This document shows positions 1-6,056 of a stretch of 6,063 nt of DNA, in pieces. The stretch is from positions 1-6,063 of the forward strand of contig RFHZ01000118.1 of NCBI GenBank assembly GCA_003696125.1. The letters are read 5' to 3'. Every line of letters begins with the position of its first letter. Positions within the stretch are counted from its first letter, which is position 1. A program made the position numbers and the translations under genes. The notes beneath the pieces were generated by a model, which was not told the DNA's origin, did no database searches, and saw nothing but the letters and a program-made list of their open reading frames with translations. This stretch comes from Nitrospinota bacterium (GTDB lineage: Bacteria; Tectomicrobia; Entotheonellia; J063).

Positions 1-1170
1 CCCCAAAAGGTGGGAGAGGACTTCGGCATTGTGCTGCCCGATACGGGGAGCAAGGGCAGAGGGGGTGGGAACCGCTCCATCGATCTTGAAGGGGAGGTTG
101 GGGAAGGTGACGGCTCTCAGAAGCGGATGGGTCATGGTGACCAGCATGTGTCTGGCCTGAATCTGGGGATCATGGATCGCTTCCTCCACCGTCTTGACCG
201 GGGCACAGGGAACACCGTGTGCATCGAGGGTGGCGGTGACCTCTTTGACCGTCTGCTGCCCGATCCACTCCTGCACGAGCGACTCGACCTCTCGCCGGTG
301 GTGGATACGCTGGGGAGAGGTGGCAAAGCGAGGGTCCTGGGCCAGCTCTGGTCGTCCCATGGCCTGGGCCAGACGCGCCCAGTTTGCATCCAGACCGGCA
401 GCCAGGACTACGGCTCCGTCTCGGGCGCTAAAGAGCCCGTACGGCACCGTTTCCGGGAAGGTGTATCCTTCGCGGGTGGCCTTGACCGTGCCCTGGCTCA
501 AGAAGTAGCTTTGCACGGCGAATTCCTGCAGGGCAAACATGCAGTCGAGTAAGGAGAGATCGATATACGCTCCCCGGCCGGTCTGTTCCCGCGCATAGAG
601 GGCGGCACAGATGGCTCCCAGCCCGTGAACGCCGGTCAGGATATCGGCGACGGGTAGACGAAAGACCGGTGGGGGGCGATCCGGAAACCCGGTGATGTCC
701 ATCGCCCCGCTCAACGCATCGGCCAGCATTCCCTGTCCCCCTTTCTGCGCATAGGGACCGGTCTGCCCAAAGGTGGAGATGGAGCACATGATGAGACGGG
801 GATGGCGGGCAGAGAGGGTGGCATAGTCGAGTCCCAGTCGGGTCATCACGCCGGGACGAAAGTTCTCCACCACCACGTCTGCCCGGGCACACAACTCCCG
901 GGCAATGGCTGCCCCTTTAGGATGTTTCAGGTCAAGGGCGATGCTCTTTTTGTCGTGGTTTTGCTGGAGAAAGTATCCACTCTCTCCCTGCGTGTGATAG
1001 GCAAACCCCCGCGCATCATCCCCGGAAACCGGTCGCTCCACCTTGATTACTTCCGCTCCCAGAGCGGCCAGGCAGCGGGTGAGATAGGGACCGGCAAGGA
1101 CCCGGGTAAAGTCGAGGACCCGTACCCGGGACAGGAGTTGCGGGAAGGAATGTACAGACCGGGCTTCCAT
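1..1170 (-). CDS. CaiB/BaiF family III CoA transferase (C-terminus cut by window edge)
   Basis: The minus frame is open from an ATG at 1170 to the window edge, giving 390 residues. GGAG lies 6 nt upstream of the ATG, which supports this start. Family III enzymes move CoA between carboxylic acids through an aspartyl-CoA anhydride in the cytosol. The N-terminal block (about 16-45) reads RVLDFTRVLAGPYLTRCLAA and continues GAEVIKVERP, typical of the family. VVENFRPGVMTRLGLDY (about 100-116) and FGQTGPY (134-140) follow. PVADILTG puts the expected catalytic Asp at about 176, and TGRGAYIDLSLLD lies at about 197-209. The His-Asp pair of alpha-methylacyl-CoA racemases is not seen, so a transferase is more likely. 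IGQHNAEVLSHLLG near the left edge matches the usual C-terminal end, so only a short tail should be missing. It starts 34 bp after the aroQ-like stop, probably in one operon. The acyl substrate cannot be told from the sequence. Confidence 0.93.
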   Translation of the reverse strand, partial: MEARSVHSFPQLLSRVRVLDFTRVLAGPYLTRCLAALGAEVIKVERPVSGDDARGFAYHTQGESGYFLQQNHDKKSIALDLKHPKGAAIARELCARADVVVENFRPGVMTRLGLDYATLSARHPRLIMCSISTFGQTGPYAQKGGQGMLADALSGAMDITGFPDRPPPVFRLPVADILTGVHGLGAICAALYAREQTGRGAYIDLSLLDCMFALQEFAVQSYFLSQGTVKATREGYTFPETVPYGLFSARDGAVVLAAGLDANWARLAQAMGRPELAQDPRFATSPQRIHHRREVESLVQEWIGQQTVKEVTATLDAHGVPCAPVKTVEEAIHDPQIQARHMLVTMTHPLLRAVTFPNLPFKIDGAVPTPSALAPRIGQHNAEVLSHLLG

Positions 1171-1204
1171 ATCGTGCTCCTATATCGGCAGGCCTCTTAT
1201 GATC

Positions 1205-1651
1205 TTAGGATTGCTTCTTCTTGATGATCTCCAGCGCGGCATCGAGTCCCAGGAAGTAGACATGAATGCCGAAGCCCATGATCACACCGACCGCTGCCGG
1301 GGCGATAACCGAGTGGATCCCCCGGGCATAGTGGTTGGAGATATGGACCTCTACGTAGGGGAGGCGCTCCTTTACCCCTAGCAGGGCATCTTTGAGGGCA
1401 TATCCGGTATAGGAGAACCCTCCCGGATTCATGACAATGGCATCAAATCCCTCCTCGTACGCCCGGTAGATGCGATCGATCGTCTCGGCCTCGCTGTTGG
1501 AGTAGAAGTTTTCTACCTCAAACTGTTTTTGCCGGGCGTAGTCTTCGATCATCTTGTTCAACTCTGCCGCCGTGGTCCGTCCGTAGATCTCGGGCTGTCG
1601 AATGCCCAACCAGTTCATATTGGCTCCATGAATCATCAGGATCTTCGGCAT
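1205..1651 (-). CDS. aroQ: Type II 3-dehydroquinate dehydratase-like protein (AroQ family), divergent
   Basis: This 148-residue protein has the normal length of type II dehydroquinases, the small dodecameric enzymes that interconvert 3-dehydroquinate and 3-dehydroshikimate. Family landmarks are GANMNWLG (9-16, usually GPNLNLLG), Arg18 and Tyr23 in RQPEIYG (lid Arg and catalytic Tyr), SNSEAETID (51-59), NPGGFSYTG (75-83, usually NPGAYTHTS), and VEVHISN with the catalytic His103. IAPAAVGVIMGFG follows. The segment usually reading HAREEFRHHS is shortened to YARGIHS, removing an Arg that binds substrate in characterised enzymes; the His in NPGAYTHTS is Tyr81. The fold and core acid-base residues are therefore kept while substrate contacts differ. 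The start follows AAGGAGG by 4 nt. It lies 34 bp upstream of the CoA transferase with no other shikimate gene visible, so a catabolic or different dehydratase role is possible. Family is confident; substrate is not. Confidence 0.87.
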   Translation of the reverse strand: MPKILMIHGANMNWLGIRQPEIYGRTTAAELNKMIEDYARQKQFEVENFYSNSEAETIDRIYRAYEEGFDAIVMNPGGFSYTGYALKDALLGVKERLPYVEVHISNHYARGIHSVIAPAAVGVIMGFGIHVYFLGLDAALEIIKKKQS

Positions 1652-1706
1652 ACTTCCTCCTTTGCATGTCTCGTTGTCCGTCGTTACTCCTCGTCTCTGC
1701 GTCTAC

Positions 1707-1918: not shown

Positions 1919-2100
1919 ATTCCTGGCAAGATCTTTCAGATAGACCGGTTTTCTGGGAGGTAATATGCAATCCCCCCCACCGGTACGAGCCACCGGTCTG
2001 TGGAGTGGGCATGGGTATTATGCCCTGCGACAGGGGCTAACCAGGGTTGTGCTCAGGCTCGTTGAGCATGTCCACCAGCCCGAAGAAAGGAGAGCCTTCC
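1919..2100 (+). promoter_or_regulatory. Structured 5' leader of the stress-protein mRNA, class not recognised
   Basis: This stretch follows the candidate promoter and precedes the stress-protein ATG. AGACCGGT (1942-1949) is the exact reverse complement of ACCGGTCT (1992-1999). A third ACCGGT (1979-1984) can pair with the same first arm, so two foldings compete. In the shorter one, TGGG (1954-1957) pairs with CCCA (1976-1979), placing the Shine-Dalgarno-like GGGAGG (1955-1960) in a stem. Further hairpins are CCCTG/CAGGG (2023-2027/2031-2035) and TGCTCA/TGAGCA (2050-2055/2063-2068). The last ends about 30 nt before the gene start. I do not recognise a known riboswitch consensus here, and no T-run terminator follows any hairpin. 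A regulatory RNA role is inference. Confidence 0.35.
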
Positions 2101-2571
2101 ATGTCTACCATCCTGCTTGCCGTCGCCCTCCAAAAATGGGAGCAGTACAGCGCCCACGCCCTTGCGGCCAGAGAGGTGGCTGCTGCCCTGGCTCGCGGTT
2201 CTTCCAACCACCTTCATGTCCTGAGCGTCTACGACTATGAGGATATCAAGACCAGTGGCCTTCCCCCTGAGATGGTGGTCAACTACCGGGAAGATCAGAT
2301 GCGCCGGACCGATGACTCCATGAAGCAAAAGCTGGAAGAGTACGTTGCTCCCCTCCGCTCCAACGGTTTGGAGATCACCAAGATTCTCCGTGTGGGCGAT
2401 CCGCGCGAAGAGATCGTGAAGGTGGCTACCGAGATTAAGGCCGACCTGCTGATTATCGGGACCCACAGCAAACGCGGGCTGTTCGACATCTTCCTGGGAG
2501 GAACCGCCCAGCAGGTGAGCAAGCGTGCCCCCTGCACCCTGGTGCTGGTCTCTCCCAAGAAAACAGACTGA
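2101..2571 (+). CDS. Universal stress protein (UspA) domain protein, degenerate nucleotide-binding motif
   Basis: This is a single-domain USP of 156 residues, the usual family length. AAAGGAG lies about 8-10 nt before the ATG at 2101. An in-frame ATG at 2047 would add 18 residues that do not resemble the family. USPs are cytosolic dimers of alpha/beta proteins that accumulate under stress or starvation. The N-terminal strand ILLAVAL (4-10) is followed by LHVLSVYDY (38-46), LRVGDPREEIVKVA (96-109), ADLLIIGTHSKRG (114-126) and APCTLVLVSPKK (143-154). ATP-binding members have Asp after the first strand (VAVDGS) and a G-2X-G-9X-G-S/T motif. Here the Asp position is Leu10, the second Gly is Ser123, and the last part reads GGT. 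ATP binding may therefore be weak or absent. The gene stands alone on the plus strand, with its own promoter and leader, and its stop is 6 bp from the convergent reductase stop. The partner process is unknown. Confidence 0.9.
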   Translation: MSTILLAVALQKWEQYSAHALAAREVAAALARGSSNHLHVLSVYDYEDIKTSGLPPEMVVNYREDQMRRTDDSMKQKLEEYVAPLRSNGLEITKILRVGDPREEIVKVATEIKADLLIIGTHSKRGLFDIFLGGTAQQVSKRAPCTLVLVSPKKTD

Positions 2572-2577
2572 AAGGGA

Positions 2578-3393
2578 TCAGCCGACGATATCCTCACCCC
2601 CGTCGATGCCGATGACATTACCGGTCATCCAGTAGGTCCCGGGATGGCAGAGAGCCACGATGCCGGCTGCAACATCCTGGGGAGTGGTCAACCGCTTCCC
2701 AGGATTCCGTTCCTGCGCCACGGTGATCATCTTTTCGTGTCCCGGTATCTTGCGCAAGGCCGGGGTATCGGTCACCCCTGCCCGTACCGCATTGACCGTA
2801 ATCCCCAGGGGGGCCAGCTCCAGGGCGAGCTGGCGCACGTGCGATTCCAGAGCGGCTTTGGCTGCCGAGACCGCTCCATACATGGGCCAGACACGTTGTC
2901 CTCCGGCACTGGTCATGGCAAAGACCTTCCCCCCTCGTCTCAGGAGCTTGCGGCGTACCAGATCCTGTACCCAGTAGACCAGGCTGTGCGCCATGACATC
3001 CAGGGTCATATTCATCTGGGCCGGGGTAATCTCCTCGTTCGGGGTGTCGGCGATGAACGGCTTCAGGGTACCAAAGGCGAGCGAGTGGAGCAGGACTTTG
3101 AGCTCGCCAGGCGGGGTCGTGGCCTGAAGCCGGGCTTCGATTTTCGCCAATGCCTCTGCCCGCTTGGCCGGATCGGCAGCATTCATGTTCAAAAAGAGGG
3201 CCTCTCGGCCCATGGCTTTGATCTGGGAGACGATCCGCTCCGCATTGGGCAGGGTGGATTTCCGGTCGAGGTGCACCCCAAAGATGTTCATCCCGGCCTG
3301 GGCCAGGGCGAGACTGGTTGCTTCTCCAAACCCGCTGGAGGCCCCCAGGATAAGCGCCCAATCGTTTTCTCCAAATAGGCGTTGTCCTTCCAA
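2578..3393 (-). CDS. FabL/FabI-like enoyl-ACP reductase of the SDR superfamily
   Basis: This 271-residue Rossmann oxidoreductase starts at TTG (3393), 4-5 nt after a GGGAGG site. The nucleotide-binding loop is GASSGFG (17-23, G-X3-G-X-G). LLHSLAFG (101-108) resembles the HSxAF signature of enoyl-ACP reductases. The active site reads Ser162, Tyr172 and Lys179. Tyr and Lys are six residues apart (Y-X6-K), the spacing of FabI and FabL, not the Y-X3-K of ordinary SDRs. The Ser-to-Tyr spacing of 10 also fits what I recall of Bacillus FabL. The C-terminus has ITVNAVRAGVTDTPALRKIP, in place of the more usual NAVSGG or NAVSPG, then TGNVIGIDGGEDI. The likely reaction is NAD(P)H-dependent reduction of a trans-2-enoyl-ACP or enoyl-CoA in fatty acid synthesis or a specialised pathway. 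It follows the XRE regulator by 30 bp on the same strand. Enoyl reductase is favoured over other SDR activities, but the substrate is unproved. Confidence 0.85.
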   Translation of the reverse strand: MEGQRLFGENDWALILGASSGFGEATSLALAQAGMNIFGVHLDRKSTLPNAERIVSQIKAMGREALFLNMNAADPAKRAEALAKIEARLQATTPPGELKVLLHSLAFGTLKPFIADTPNEEITPAQMNMTLDVMAHSLVYWVQDLVRRKLLRRGGKVFAMTSAGGQRVWPMYGAVSAAKAALESHVRQLALELAPLGITVNAVRAGVTDTPALRKIPGHEKMITVAQERNPGKRLTTPQDVAAGIVALCHPGTYWMTGNVIGIDGGEDIVG

Positions 3394-3423
3394 CTTTTCC
3401 TCCCTATAGACAGTGTTGAGTGT

Positions 3424-3714
3424 TCAGGACTCCGGGGTTTCCACAAATTTTGCCTCGAGATAGGCCTCGGCTTTCGGTACCTTGCGATAGGTCTTGATCG
3501 GCTGGGCAAACTCTGTATCCGAGACCAGTTCGTCATAGGAGAGTCCAAGAAGGCGGGCAAGGTTTTCGATGACCGGCTTGGGTGGGCGGAAGTACTCATG
3601 CTCGATCTTGTAGAGATAGCTCTGACTGATTCCGGCCTGTTCGGCGACTTTGCGTCGATCCAGCTTTTGCGCATCGATGAGCTGAGAGAGCTTCTTCCCG
3701 AATCGTTTCTCCAT
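3424..3714 (-). CDS. XRE-family helix-turn-helix transcriptional regulator
   Basis: This is a 96-residue DNA-binding protein. The chosen ATG (3714) is 7 nt after AAGGAGG; an in-frame ATG at 3753 would add 13 residues but has its AAGGA directly against the codon. The Cro/C1-type HTH covers about residues 5-63. FGKKLSQLIDAQKLDRRKVA forms the first helices, EQAGISQSYLYKIEHEYFRPP holds the turn and recognition helix, and IENLARLLGLSYDELV closes the domain. The remaining tail of about 33 residues (KTYRKVPKAEAYLEAKF) is charged, matches no sensor domain I know, and may aid dimerisation. It leads an operon with the enoyl reductase and faces leuC across a 317-bp region with a palindrome 59 bp upstream of its start. 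Autoregulation and control of the reductase or the LeuCD genes are reasonable inferences. A toxin-antitoxin antitoxin is less likely because the partner is a full-length enzyme. Confidence 0.9.
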   Translation of the reverse strand: MEKRFGKKLSQLIDAQKLDRRKVAEQAGISQSYLYKIEHEYFRPPKPVIENLARLLGLSYDELVSDTEFAQPIKTYRKVPKAEAYLEAKFVETPES

Positions 3715-4031
3715 ACAAACCCTCCTTGTGCATACTTTGACCCTCTGATTCATTCCTTACTGTTTCAGCAGGTAGGGGCACAGCGCGCTGCGCCCCTAGA
3801 TGTCCGGTGGCCTTTGGCCTGCCTTTCTTTGTCTCCTCCGTGACGAACTACGGTTTTCCTCATCCAGCCATTTGCATTCTACACGAAATTTCCGTATATT
3901 ACCAGCAGGAATTCATAGTCCCAGGGGGAAGTTTTTCCCGCCTCGGTTTGCTCTTCACCCCCTTCTCAGCGAAGTGCTACAGTCTAAGGCAACAGGAGAA
4001 GAGAAAGAGTCAAGGAAAGGAGTAGGTACCA
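3715..4031. promoter_or_regulatory. Divergent intergenic control region between the XRE gene and leuC
   Basis: This 317-bp stretch contains no credible gene. Besides the palindrome it holds an AT-richer core around 3870-3915. On the plus strand TATATT (3895-3900) matches the -10 consensus at 5 of 6 positions with TTGCAT 17 bp upstream (3872-3877), a poor -35; this could serve leuC with a leader of about 125 nt. On the minus strand TAGAAT (revcomp of 3878-3883) is a 5-of-6 -10 match without a good -35. GGGAA/TTCCC (3926-3930/3935-3939) is a short hairpin. No leucine-rich leader peptide or T-box element was found, so leuC attenuation is not supported. Confidence 0.35.
3773..3798. repeat. 26-bp near-perfect palindrome between the XRE gene and leuC
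   Basis: The left half TAGGGGCACAGCG and the right half CGCTGCGCCCCTA are reverse complements at 12 of 13 positions, the only mismatch being A3780/C3791. The central CAGCGCGCTG is a perfect palindrome. It lies 58 bp beyond the XRE start and about 230 bp before leuC. It may be an operator for the XRE protein. It also resembles the dispersed palindromes with TAGGGGC and GCCCCTA ends found between genes in many bacterial genomes. No T-run follows on either strand, so it is not a typical terminator. Confidence 0.6.
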
Positions 4032-5333
4032 ATGCCGATGACCCTGAGCGAAAAGATCATTGCCAAGAAAGCGGGAAAGGCCCGGGTGGCTCCCGGAGAT
4101 TTTGTGACCGTGAAACCGGATGTGATGATGGGTAACGATATCACCGCCTCCATGACCATCAGGATCCTGGAGGAACATGGGATCGATTCCTTCCCGGAAC
4201 CGGATAAGATGTTTCTGGTCATGAGTCATTTTGTGCCGGCCAAGGATATCCCCTCGGCCCGGATGGCCAAGGTGTGCCGGGATTTTGCCCGTAAACATAA
4301 CCTCAAACACTATTTTGAAACCGGCCAGGGCGGGATCGAGCATGCCCTCCTCCCCGACGAGGGATACGTGGTGGCCGGGGATCTGGTCCTGGGAGCGGAT
4401 TCGCATAGCTGTACCTATGGTGGGGTCCATACCTTTGCCACCGGCATCGGGTCTACCGATCTGGCAGCCGCCTGGGCAACGGGAGAGCTCTGGCTCAGGG
4501 TGCCGGAAACGGTCAAGGTGGTGTTTCATGGGGTCCCAGAAAATCCCTGGGTATCGGGCAAAGATCTGGTCCTCTTCTTGATCAGCCAGATCGGGGATGA
4601 TGGAGCCCTGTACCAGGCCCTGGAGTACCAGGGAGAGGCCATTGAGCATCTCTCGGTAGAGGGCCGCCTGACCATGGCCAACATGGCCATTGAAGCGGGA
4701 GCCAAGAGCGCCATCTTCCCCTGTGATCAGAAGCTGCTCGCCTATGAGGAAGGCCGGGCCAGGCGCCCTATCGACCCGGTAGAAGCGGATCAGGGGGCCT
4801 CCTACGCCCGGATCTATGAGTGGGATGCCACCAGGATCGAGCCCCAGGTGGCCTACCCGCATCTCCCCAGCAACACGCGACCGGTAAGCCAGGCCATGCA
4901 GGAGAAGATCAAGATCGATACGGTCTTCATCGGCTCCTGTACCAACGCCAGGATCGAAGATCTGCGGATAGCGGCCAGGATCCTGCAGGGAAAACACCTG
5001 GCTCCCTGGACACGTGGGGTAGCCATTCCCGCGACGCATAACATCTACCTGCAGGCCCTTTCGGAGGGACTCATCGAGATCTTTTCCCGTGCCGGGTTTA
5101 CGGTGACGGAAGGGACCTGTGGTCCCTGCCTGGGTGGATACATGGGAGTGGTGGGAGAAGGAGAACGGATGCTTTCCACCTCTAATCGAAACTTTATCGG
5201 TCGTACCGGTGATCCCAAGGGAGAGACCTATCTCTGTTCTCCGGCCGTGGCTGCGGCTTCGGCCCTCACCGGTTATATCACCGATCCGCGTGAGGTGATA
5301 GATGATAAGGAGGCGATGAGCCAGTTTGCCTGA
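4032..5333 (+). CDS. leuC: LeuC-type hydro-lyase large subunit (3-isopropylmalate dehydratase family, [4Fe-4S])
   Basis: This 433-residue protein is the short LeuC type of archaea and many anaerobes, rather than the enteric type of about 466. The start is 9 nt after AAAGGAG. With LeuD it should remove and re-add water to isomerise 2-isopropylmalate to 3-isopropylmalate in leucine synthesis. Homoaconitase, citramalate or dimethylmaleate hydratases share the fold. Visible motifs are PDVMMGNDITA (29-39), FETGQGGIEH (95-104), LGADSHSCTYGG (120-131) and TGIGSTDLA (137-145). Expected [4Fe-4S] ligands are Cys303 in GSCTNARIEDLR and Cys363 and Cys366 in TCGPCLGG. RNFIGRTGDPKGETYLCSPA and AAASALTGYITDP close the protein. 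The residue after CGPCLGG is Tyr370 where I expect His in most relatives. The small subunit follows after 207 bp of repeats, an unusual gap. Family is secure; leucine synthesis is likely but not certain without leuA or leuB in view. Confidence 0.93.
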   Translation: MPMTLSEKIIAKKAGKARVAPGDFVTVKPDVMMGNDITASMTIRILEEHGIDSFPEPDKMFLVMSHFVPAKDIPSARMAKVCRDFARKHNLKHYFETGQGGIEHALLPDEGYVVAGDLVLGADSHSCTYGGVHTFATGIGSTDLAAAWATGELWLRVPETVKVVFHGVPENPWVSGKDLVLFLISQIGDDGALYQALEYQGEAIEHLSVEGRLTMANMAIEAGAKSAIFPCDQKLLAYEEGRARRPIDPVEADQGASYARIYEWDATRIEPQVAYPHLPSNTRPVSQAMQEKIKIDTVFIGSCTNARIEDLRIAARILQGKHLAPWTRGVAIPATHNIYLQALSEGLIEIFSRAGFTVTEGTCGPCLGGYMGVVGEGERMLSTSNRNFIGRTGDPKGETYLCSPAVAAASALTGYITDPREVIDDKEAMSQFA

Positions 5334-5376
5334 AGTGGGCTGCTGGGGGAGAGACACCACGGAGGCATGGAGGGAT

Positions 5377-5419
5377 AAAGACCAGGCACAGAGGCACGAA
5401 AGACCAGGCACAGAGGCAC
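5377..5419. repeat. Two-copy 22-bp tandem repeat in the leuC-leuD spacer
   Basis: AAAGACCAGGCACAGAGGCA followed by C occurs at 5377-5397 and again, exactly, at 5399-5419, a 22-bp period with one joining base. A third copy begins at about 5420 but fades after AAAG. The purine-rich GGCACAGAGGCAC wording resembles dispersed CACAGAG/CACGGAG repeats common between genes of some bacteria. CACGGAGG occurs on both sides of the repeat block, at 5358-5365 and 5513-5520. Confidence 0.85.
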
Positions 5420-5431
5420 AAAGAATTTACA

Positions 5432-5494
5432 CAGTCCTCAGTCCTCATCACTCAGTCCTCAGTCCTCATTACTCGTTACACAGTCCTCAGTCCT
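5432..5494. repeat. Nine-unit heptamer array (CAGTCCT) in the leuC-leuD spacer
   Basis: The 63 bp divide exactly into nine 7-bp units. Units 1, 2, 4, 5, 8 and 9 are CAGTCCT; unit 3 is CATCACT, unit 6 CATTACT and unit 7 CGTTACA. A 21-bp higher-order unit (two perfect heptamers plus a degenerate one) repeats, so the array looks to have grown by duplicating triplets of heptamers. There is no coding frame of note and no unique spacers, so it is not a CRISPR array. It could be a slippage-prone, length-variable locus between two subunit genes. Confidence 0.9.
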
Positions 5495-5511
5495 GAGAGA
5501 GGGGAACAGAA

Positions 5512-5527
5512 ACACGGAGGACACGGA
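5512..5527. repeat. Short direct repeat ACACGGA next to the leuD ribosome binding site
   Basis: ACACGGA occurs at 5512-5518 and 5521-5527 with a 9-bp period. The last A of the second copy runs into AAAGGAG (5527-5533), the ribosome binding site 7 nt before the leuD ATG. The edge of the repeat block therefore touches the translation signal. Confidence 0.6.
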
Positions 5528-5540
5528 AAGGAGAGAAGGA

Positions 5541-6056
5541 ATGACAGAGATCTTGCGAGGGAAGGTGTTTCGGTACGGACGAGATATCAACACCGATCTG
5601 ATCATCCCGGCCCGCTACCTGATGACCAGTGATCCGGCGGAATTGGCCAAACACTGTATGGAAGACCATGATGCAACGTTTTTACAGCAGGTGGAGCCGG
5701 GGGACATCATCGTGGCCGAGGAGAACTTCGGCTCTGGCTCCTCGCGGGAACATGCCCCGGTGGCCATCAAGGCGAGTGGGATCTCCTGCGTGATTGCCAA
5801 GACCTTTGCCCGTATCTTCTTCCGCAACGCCATCAACATCGGCCTGCCGGTGCTCCAGTGCCCGGAAGCGGTGGATGACATCCGGCAGGGGGATCGGGTC
5901 GAGGTATCGCTGGAAAAGGGGGAGATACGGAACCTTCGCTCCGGAAAGACCTTTCATGTCACCCCCTATCCCGAGGCACTCATGGAGATCATCAAGGCCG
6001 GAGGGTTGATGAATCTGGTAAAGAAGAAACGGGGGACCTCTGTTCCCACCTGCTGA
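5541..6056 (+). CDS. leuD: LeuD-type hydro-lyase small subunit (3-isopropylmalate dehydratase family)
   Basis: This 171-residue swivelling-domain subunit partners the LeuC-type protein upstream; the active site forms between them. Family length is about 160-170. The ATG follows AAAGGAG by 7 nt. The start motif GRDINTDLIIPARYL (13-27) leads into the substrate-recognition loop YLMT (26-29). Archaeal isopropylmalate isomerases have YLRT here and many bacterial ones YLNT, so Met28 is a variation at a site tied to substrate choice. VEPGDIIVAEENFGSGSSRE and HAP (51-73) carry the conserved GSSREHAP, in which Arg69 is expected to contact substrate. FARIFFRNAINIGLPVL (89-105) and IIKAGGLMNLVKKK (150-163) complete the fold. 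It lacks an iron-sulfur site, as expected. Only 7 nt follow its stop, so downstream genes are unknown. The small subunit usually decides specificity in this family, so assignment to leucine synthesis rather than a related hydratase is probable, not proved. Confidence 0.92.
   Translation: MTEILRGKVFRYGRDINTDLIIPARYLMTSDPAELAKHCMEDHDATFLQQVEPGDIIVAEENFGSGSSREHAPVAIKASGISCVIAKTFARIFFRNAINIGLPVLQCPEAVDDIRQGDRVEVSLEKGEIRNLRSGKTFHVTPYPEALMEIIKAGGLMNLVKKKRGTSVPTC

Follow-up and report, generated by a model that had tools for sequence, protein, structure and literature searches.

An AroQ-like protein encoded beside a CoA-transferase gene and its clade, with a probable shift of substrate away from 3-dehydroquinate

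The window analyzed here, an entire contig of 6063 bases (contig C422 of genome G000), encodes on its reverse strand an AroQ-like protein of the DHquinase_II family (148 residues, 1205..1651) that falls within a clade whose members appear to be substrate-shifted. On balance we favor, with moderate confidence, the view that this protein is a dehydratase for a β-hydroxy-keto carboxylate other than 3-dehydroquinate, working in acid catabolism with a CoA-transferase partner. The case is built on the selective loss of one part of the active site, on the coexistence of clade members with a second family member in most of the genomes surveyed, and on gene neighborhoods that differ from those of canonical enzymes.

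The PF01220 profile matches across the whole AroQ-like protein (positions 1–137 of 138, E 3e-41). The protein scores under the cutoff of the TIGR01088 aroQ equivalog model (134.8 vs 169.85 bits) but passes the looser NCBIfam subfamily model for type II 3-dehydroquinate dehydratases (NF003807, 144.3 vs a cutoff of 130). An AlphaFold2 monomer model, calculated from an alignment without three plasmid-derived rows, has a mean pLDDT of 97 and matches solved type II dehydroquinases with Z scores up to 25.4 and 0.9 Å rmsd. The start codon is preceded by a Shine-Dalgarno-like AAAGGAGG (1656..1663, reverse strand). In M. tuberculosis numbering, the alignment places the catalytic residues Asn12, Arg19, Tyr24, Asp88, Glu99, His101, and Arg108 all in the window protein, and finds the pair that binds the C5 hydroxyl missing, with Tyr at position 81 and Arg112 deleted.

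A sequence-only reading of this DNA had named Arg18, Tyr23, His103, and Trp14, and all four are present in the 148-residue reading frame. It had also reported a change to the GPNLNLLG motif, in whose place we find GANMNWLG (codons 9–16, 1604..1627, reverse strand); sequence comparison shows Trp14 to occupy a position that is Leu or Met in canonical enzymes and Trp, Tyr, Phe, or Cys in the clade. The reported replacement of NPGAYTHTS by NPGGFSYTG (codons 75–83, 1403..1429, reverse strand) is seen as well, with Asn75 kept, but NPGG alone is ordinary, position 77 being Gly or Ala in canonical enzymes; judged by the alignment, the substitutions that matter are those of His81 by Tyr and of Ser83 by Gly. 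The third stretch, HISNHYARGIHS (codons 103–114, 1310..1345, reverse strand), has 12 residues vs 15 in canonical enzymes and keeps the equivalents of His101 and Arg108. Here the proposed exchange of HAREEFRHHS for YARGIHS holds as a replacement, although what is gone is three residues and not the whole segment, and the supposed loss of its Arg is true of Arg112 but not of the Arg108 equivalent, which is retained as Arg110 of the window protein.

Relatives were gathered from the phylum of the window's organism, a genome collection, plasmids (of Cupriavidus, Ponticoccus, and Antarctobacter; the Cupriavidus homolog is WP_058697544), several orders, and two sets of genomes, namely 385 from the class of an Acetobacteraceae relative and 398 from the phylum of that relative; a single-protein scan of the genome collection contigs gave one relative only. 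We aligned 24 clade members with 32 canonical-type enzymes, using an M. tuberculosis AroQ sequence as a visual guide only, with the residue counts independent of it. In a maximum-likelihood tree the 24 relatives lie on one side of a branch with 98/94 support relative to the 32 canonical homologs, and form a distinct, mostly alphaproteobacterial clade with the type II dehydroquinase fold. All 18 clade members that were scanned match dehydroquinate dehydratase models.

Seven residues (Asn12, Arg19, Tyr24, Asn75, Asp88, Glu99, and His101) are invariant in 24/24 clade and 32/32 canonical sequences, Arg108 is kept in 22 of the 24 clade members, and the Ser/Thr103 carboxylate pocket is also kept. 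Arg112, on the other hand, occurs in 0/24 clade members, all with a 2–3 residue deletion, vs 30/32 canonical enzymes, and the His101–Ser115 stretch accordingly spans 12–13 residues in every clade member vs 15 in every canonical one. Position 81 is Tyr in 18 clade members, His in four, Phe in one, and Leu in one, compared with His in 30/32 canonical enzymes; position 83 is Gly throughout the clade (24/24) vs Ser in 32/32; and residue 84 is Tyr, His, Glu, or Lys vs Val or Ile. Because every clade member has the deletion and the Ser83Gly change, and 20/24 have another residue in place of His81, the sequences compared indicate that these active-site changes are due to neither chance nor sequencing error. 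Three further homologs stand apart. Two (L080 9414–9851 and L087 9395–9820) lie on the canonical side of the tree, yet lack Arg112 and have Phe at position 81, possibly through an independent substrate shift, and 67 bp separate the L087 homolog from a DUF4286-like gene, a neighbor that it shares with several clade members. A more distant DHquinase_II protein (L011 8434–8883) lacks the equivalents of Arg19 and Tyr24 as well as Arg112.

Work on the M. tuberculosis and H. pylori enzymes assigns binding of the dehydroquinate C5 hydroxyl to His81 and Arg112; Asn75, Ser/Thr103, and backbone amides bind the carboxylate, and the chemistry is carried out by Asp88, Tyr24, Arg19, and His101 (PMC6011038). 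The H81A and R112A variants of the C. glutamicum enzyme (CgDHQD) each lack detectable activity, and the accompanying survey of 750 sequences names variation at other active-site positions only (PMC10772564). Given these roles and the inactive alanine mutants, the clade has selectively lost one sub-site, the C5-hydroxyl clamp, and kept the rest. From this we infer a substrate that shares with dehydroquinate the carboxylate, a hydroxyl on the same carbon, and a ketone two carbons away, and that would have no C5 hydroxyl; an oxo-hydroxycyclohexane carboxylate such as 1-hydroxy-3-oxocyclohexane carboxylate, 4-carboxy-4-hydroxy-2-oxoadipate, and 4-hydroxy-4-methyl-2-oxoglutarate can be offered as chemical guesses. 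With the machinery kept and the clamp lost, the most likely activity would be dehydration of an alicyclic or open-chain β-hydroxy-keto carboxylate. The Arg19/Tyr24 lid, together with Asp88 from the neighboring subunit, is preserved in the AroQ-like protein, Asn12 and its water would sit at the ketone, and Asn75, Glu99, and His101 would serve loss of the hydroxyl. The protein would most likely still take a proton from beside the ketone and eliminate the β-hydroxyl of the carboxylate-bearing carbon. Two observations speak against a shift: a hydrogen bond of the kind made by His81 might in principle come from Tyr81, and 4/24 members keep His81.

The partner gene (1..1170, reverse strand) is cut by the contig end and encodes a CaiB/BaiF class III CoA-transferase (PF02515, E 2e-123), located, as the sequence-only reading stated, 34 bp downstream of the AroQ-like reading frame. 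Its resemblance to class III enzymes consists of a full-length family match (1–366 of 366) and of Asp176 within ADILTG, an instance of the ADxxxG motif, the catalytic Asp being assigned from the motif alone. The best NCBIfam relatives are dicarboxylate CoA-transferases, every score being far under its cutoff (297 bits vs 750 for the succinate-glutarate and 268 vs 700 for the succinyl-CoA:mesaconate CoA-transferases). The gap between the two genes (1171..1204, reverse strand) contains a Shine-Dalgarno-like AGGAGC, and a search of these 34 bp gave no terminator; with a Shine-Dalgarno-like sequence at both starts and no terminator between, cotranscription is plausible. The CoA-transferase would activate the substrate, the product, or a downstream acid as its CoA thioester.

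The remaining genes of the window (2047–6056) encode a universal stress protein, a short-chain dehydrogenase/reductase (SDR; best NCBIfam match FabL, under cutoff), an HTH regulator, and LeuC/LeuD-type 3-isopropylmalate dehydratase subunits, with no evident tie to the AroQ-like protein. Between leuC and leuD, a repetitive stretch (5340–5530) contains CCTCAGTCCTCATTACTC and AGGCACAGAGGCACAAAG, 18-bp pieces that both recur beside the chorismate synthase gene on contig C757 (L092). A contaminant origin of the window is unsupported, the two repeat pieces being shared with this aroC contig and the GC content being similar, with the 8% contamination of the assembly as a caveat.

A CaiB-type neighbor at a distance of up to 5 kb is found for 10/37 clade loci vs 0/23 canonical loci (p 0.005, a value that overstates independence because members come partly from the same orders, related genomes inflating the neighborhood counts). 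A later set of 13 clade loci, which played no part in choosing probes, was compared within 6 kb with 21 canonical loci, the odd rows L080 and L087 left out, and gave CaiB genes in 4/13 vs 0/21, TRAP transporter genes in 7/13 vs 0/21, DUF4286-like genes in 5/13 vs 0/21, and at least one gene for CaiB, enoyl-CoA hydratase, or acyl-CoA dehydrogenase in 7/13 vs 3/21. Immediate same-strand CaiB pairing is confined to the window, L058, L059, and L099, with varying gene order, and at 4/37 vs 0/23 is non-significant alone (p 0.14); the neighboring CaiB proteins are only 27–40% identical to one another. The CoA-transferase link is thus an enrichment and is not universal, since gene order varies by lineage.

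Other genes recur in these loci. A protein of ∼210 residues annotated as DUF4286 on a Cupriavidus plasmid (L016 9366–9998) has no Pfam match at E 1e-6, and its relatives adjoin the AroQ-like gene in several genomes (L126, L127, L129, L131, and L132); it may act with the AroQ-like protein. At L009, a 770-residue protein of two CaiB-type halves (4855–7167) is encoded near the AroQ-like gene, with an argininosuccinate-lyase-like gene between them.

The main rival explanation gives the AroQ-like protein the ordinary role of 3-dehydroquinate dehydratase in this organism; Tyr81, Arg110, and the changed loop would make up for the lost contacts, and the CoA-transferase would be incidental. It remains the main rival because the genome to which the window belongs yielded no second dehydroquinase: a search of this assembly (4.18 Mb, 990 contigs, 94.8% complete) found no other PF01220 match and no type I (AroD) match, and did find aroB (dehydroquinate synthase) and aroC (chorismate synthase). 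Retention of all essential catalytic residues and the above-cutoff NF003807 match also fit this explanation. Four relatives have aroQ immediately after aroB; a canonical copy cut off there by the contig end is ruled out in the window's genome, as another reading frame starts at that place. The simplest reading is a gap in a fragmented assembly, in which the canonical gene may be unassembled given the contig number and completeness. Across the class survey of 385 genomes, 13 carry a clade copy at 203 bits or more, all other matches scoring at most 143, and 12 of these 13 contain a further DHquinase_II match. A second copy of canonical type was read in eight genomes, among them G001 from the phylum of the window's organism. 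The sequence-only reading held that a sole dehydroquinase, together with absence of conserved pairing, would count against a changed substrate; the search of this genome agrees with the first of these, but pairing recurs beyond the control loci. Loss of the side chain of either His81 or Arg112 abolishes CgDHQD activity (PMC10772564), and the aroQ equivalog cutoff is missed; we therefore regard a shikimate role as unlikely. That reading's idea of a changed substrate seems well supported by the sequences and the published mutants, since Arg112 is always and His81 mostly lost, the catalytic set is intact, and second matches are so frequent.

Somewhat more doubtful is a dehydratase or isomerase of nitrogen- or amino-acid-linked metabolism acting on an oxo or imino acid, of which the CoA-transferase link would be one lineage-specific use. 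A HisC-like aminotransferase gene lies directly downstream of the clade gene in seven genomes of one order, the glutamate synthase genes gltBD adjoin three clade members, and aspartate dehydrogenase, threonine aldolase-like, and ornithine cyclodeaminase genes are found beside others. However, such contexts differ among lineages, none occurs at the window, and it is TRAP transporter, CaiB, and DUF4286-like genes that recur in the later set. Proximity to housekeeping genes, with gltBD joined by recG near several members and by argJ, also weighs against a substrate shift, as does the HisC-like neighbor in the one order. Least probable is a non-catalytic binding or scaffold protein, or a decaying paralog. 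At least one relative does look broken, the clade member at L133 (8621–8986) having the appearance of a decaying copy because of an in-frame TAG stop and the loss of similarity at its C-terminal end, but the invariance of the seven catalytic residues in all 24 deeply diverged members argues that catalysis is under selection. The substrate-shifted dehydratase stays our preferred reading.

Type II dehydroquinases are generally regarded as enzymes of the shikimate or quinate pathways and as antibacterial targets. The window protein resembles type II 3-dehydroquinate dehydratase (AroQ, EC 4.2.1.10) in fold (Z 25, rmsd 0.9 Å), catalytic residues, and carboxylate pocket, and differs from it in the absence of Arg112, the His81Tyr and Ser83Gly changes, the shorter loop after His101, its separate clade, its score below the TIGR01088 cutoff, and its different neighbors. 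With the catabolic enzymes of the QuiB/QutE type it shares the fold and, probably, a degradative setting. Those enzymes of quinate/shikimate degradation use 3-dehydroquinate as substrate and can be expected to retain the contacts to its C5 hydroxyl; genes for quinate dehydrogenase or dehydroshikimate dehydratase were not seen in the window. Among the papers searched, nothing relevant came up on dehydroquinase-like proteins that work apart from shikimate and quinate metabolism, and none dealt with the clade.

The routine annotation of these proteins as 3-dehydroquinate dehydratases is probably wrong. Taken in its fullest form, the proposal is of an undescribed specificity built on the scaffold of type II dehydroquinases, by which a non-shikimate hydroxy-keto acid would be dehydrated in a catabolic route that is linked to transporters and CoA, encoded in lineage-specific and plasmid-borne clusters and named 3-dehydroquinate dehydratase by annotation pipelines; we hold the chances for and against this to be evenly balanced. 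If it is true, automatic dehydroquinate dehydratase annotation misstates metabolism in the genomes that carry the clade, and the clade would provide a natural example of a change in specificity tied to a three-residue deletion.
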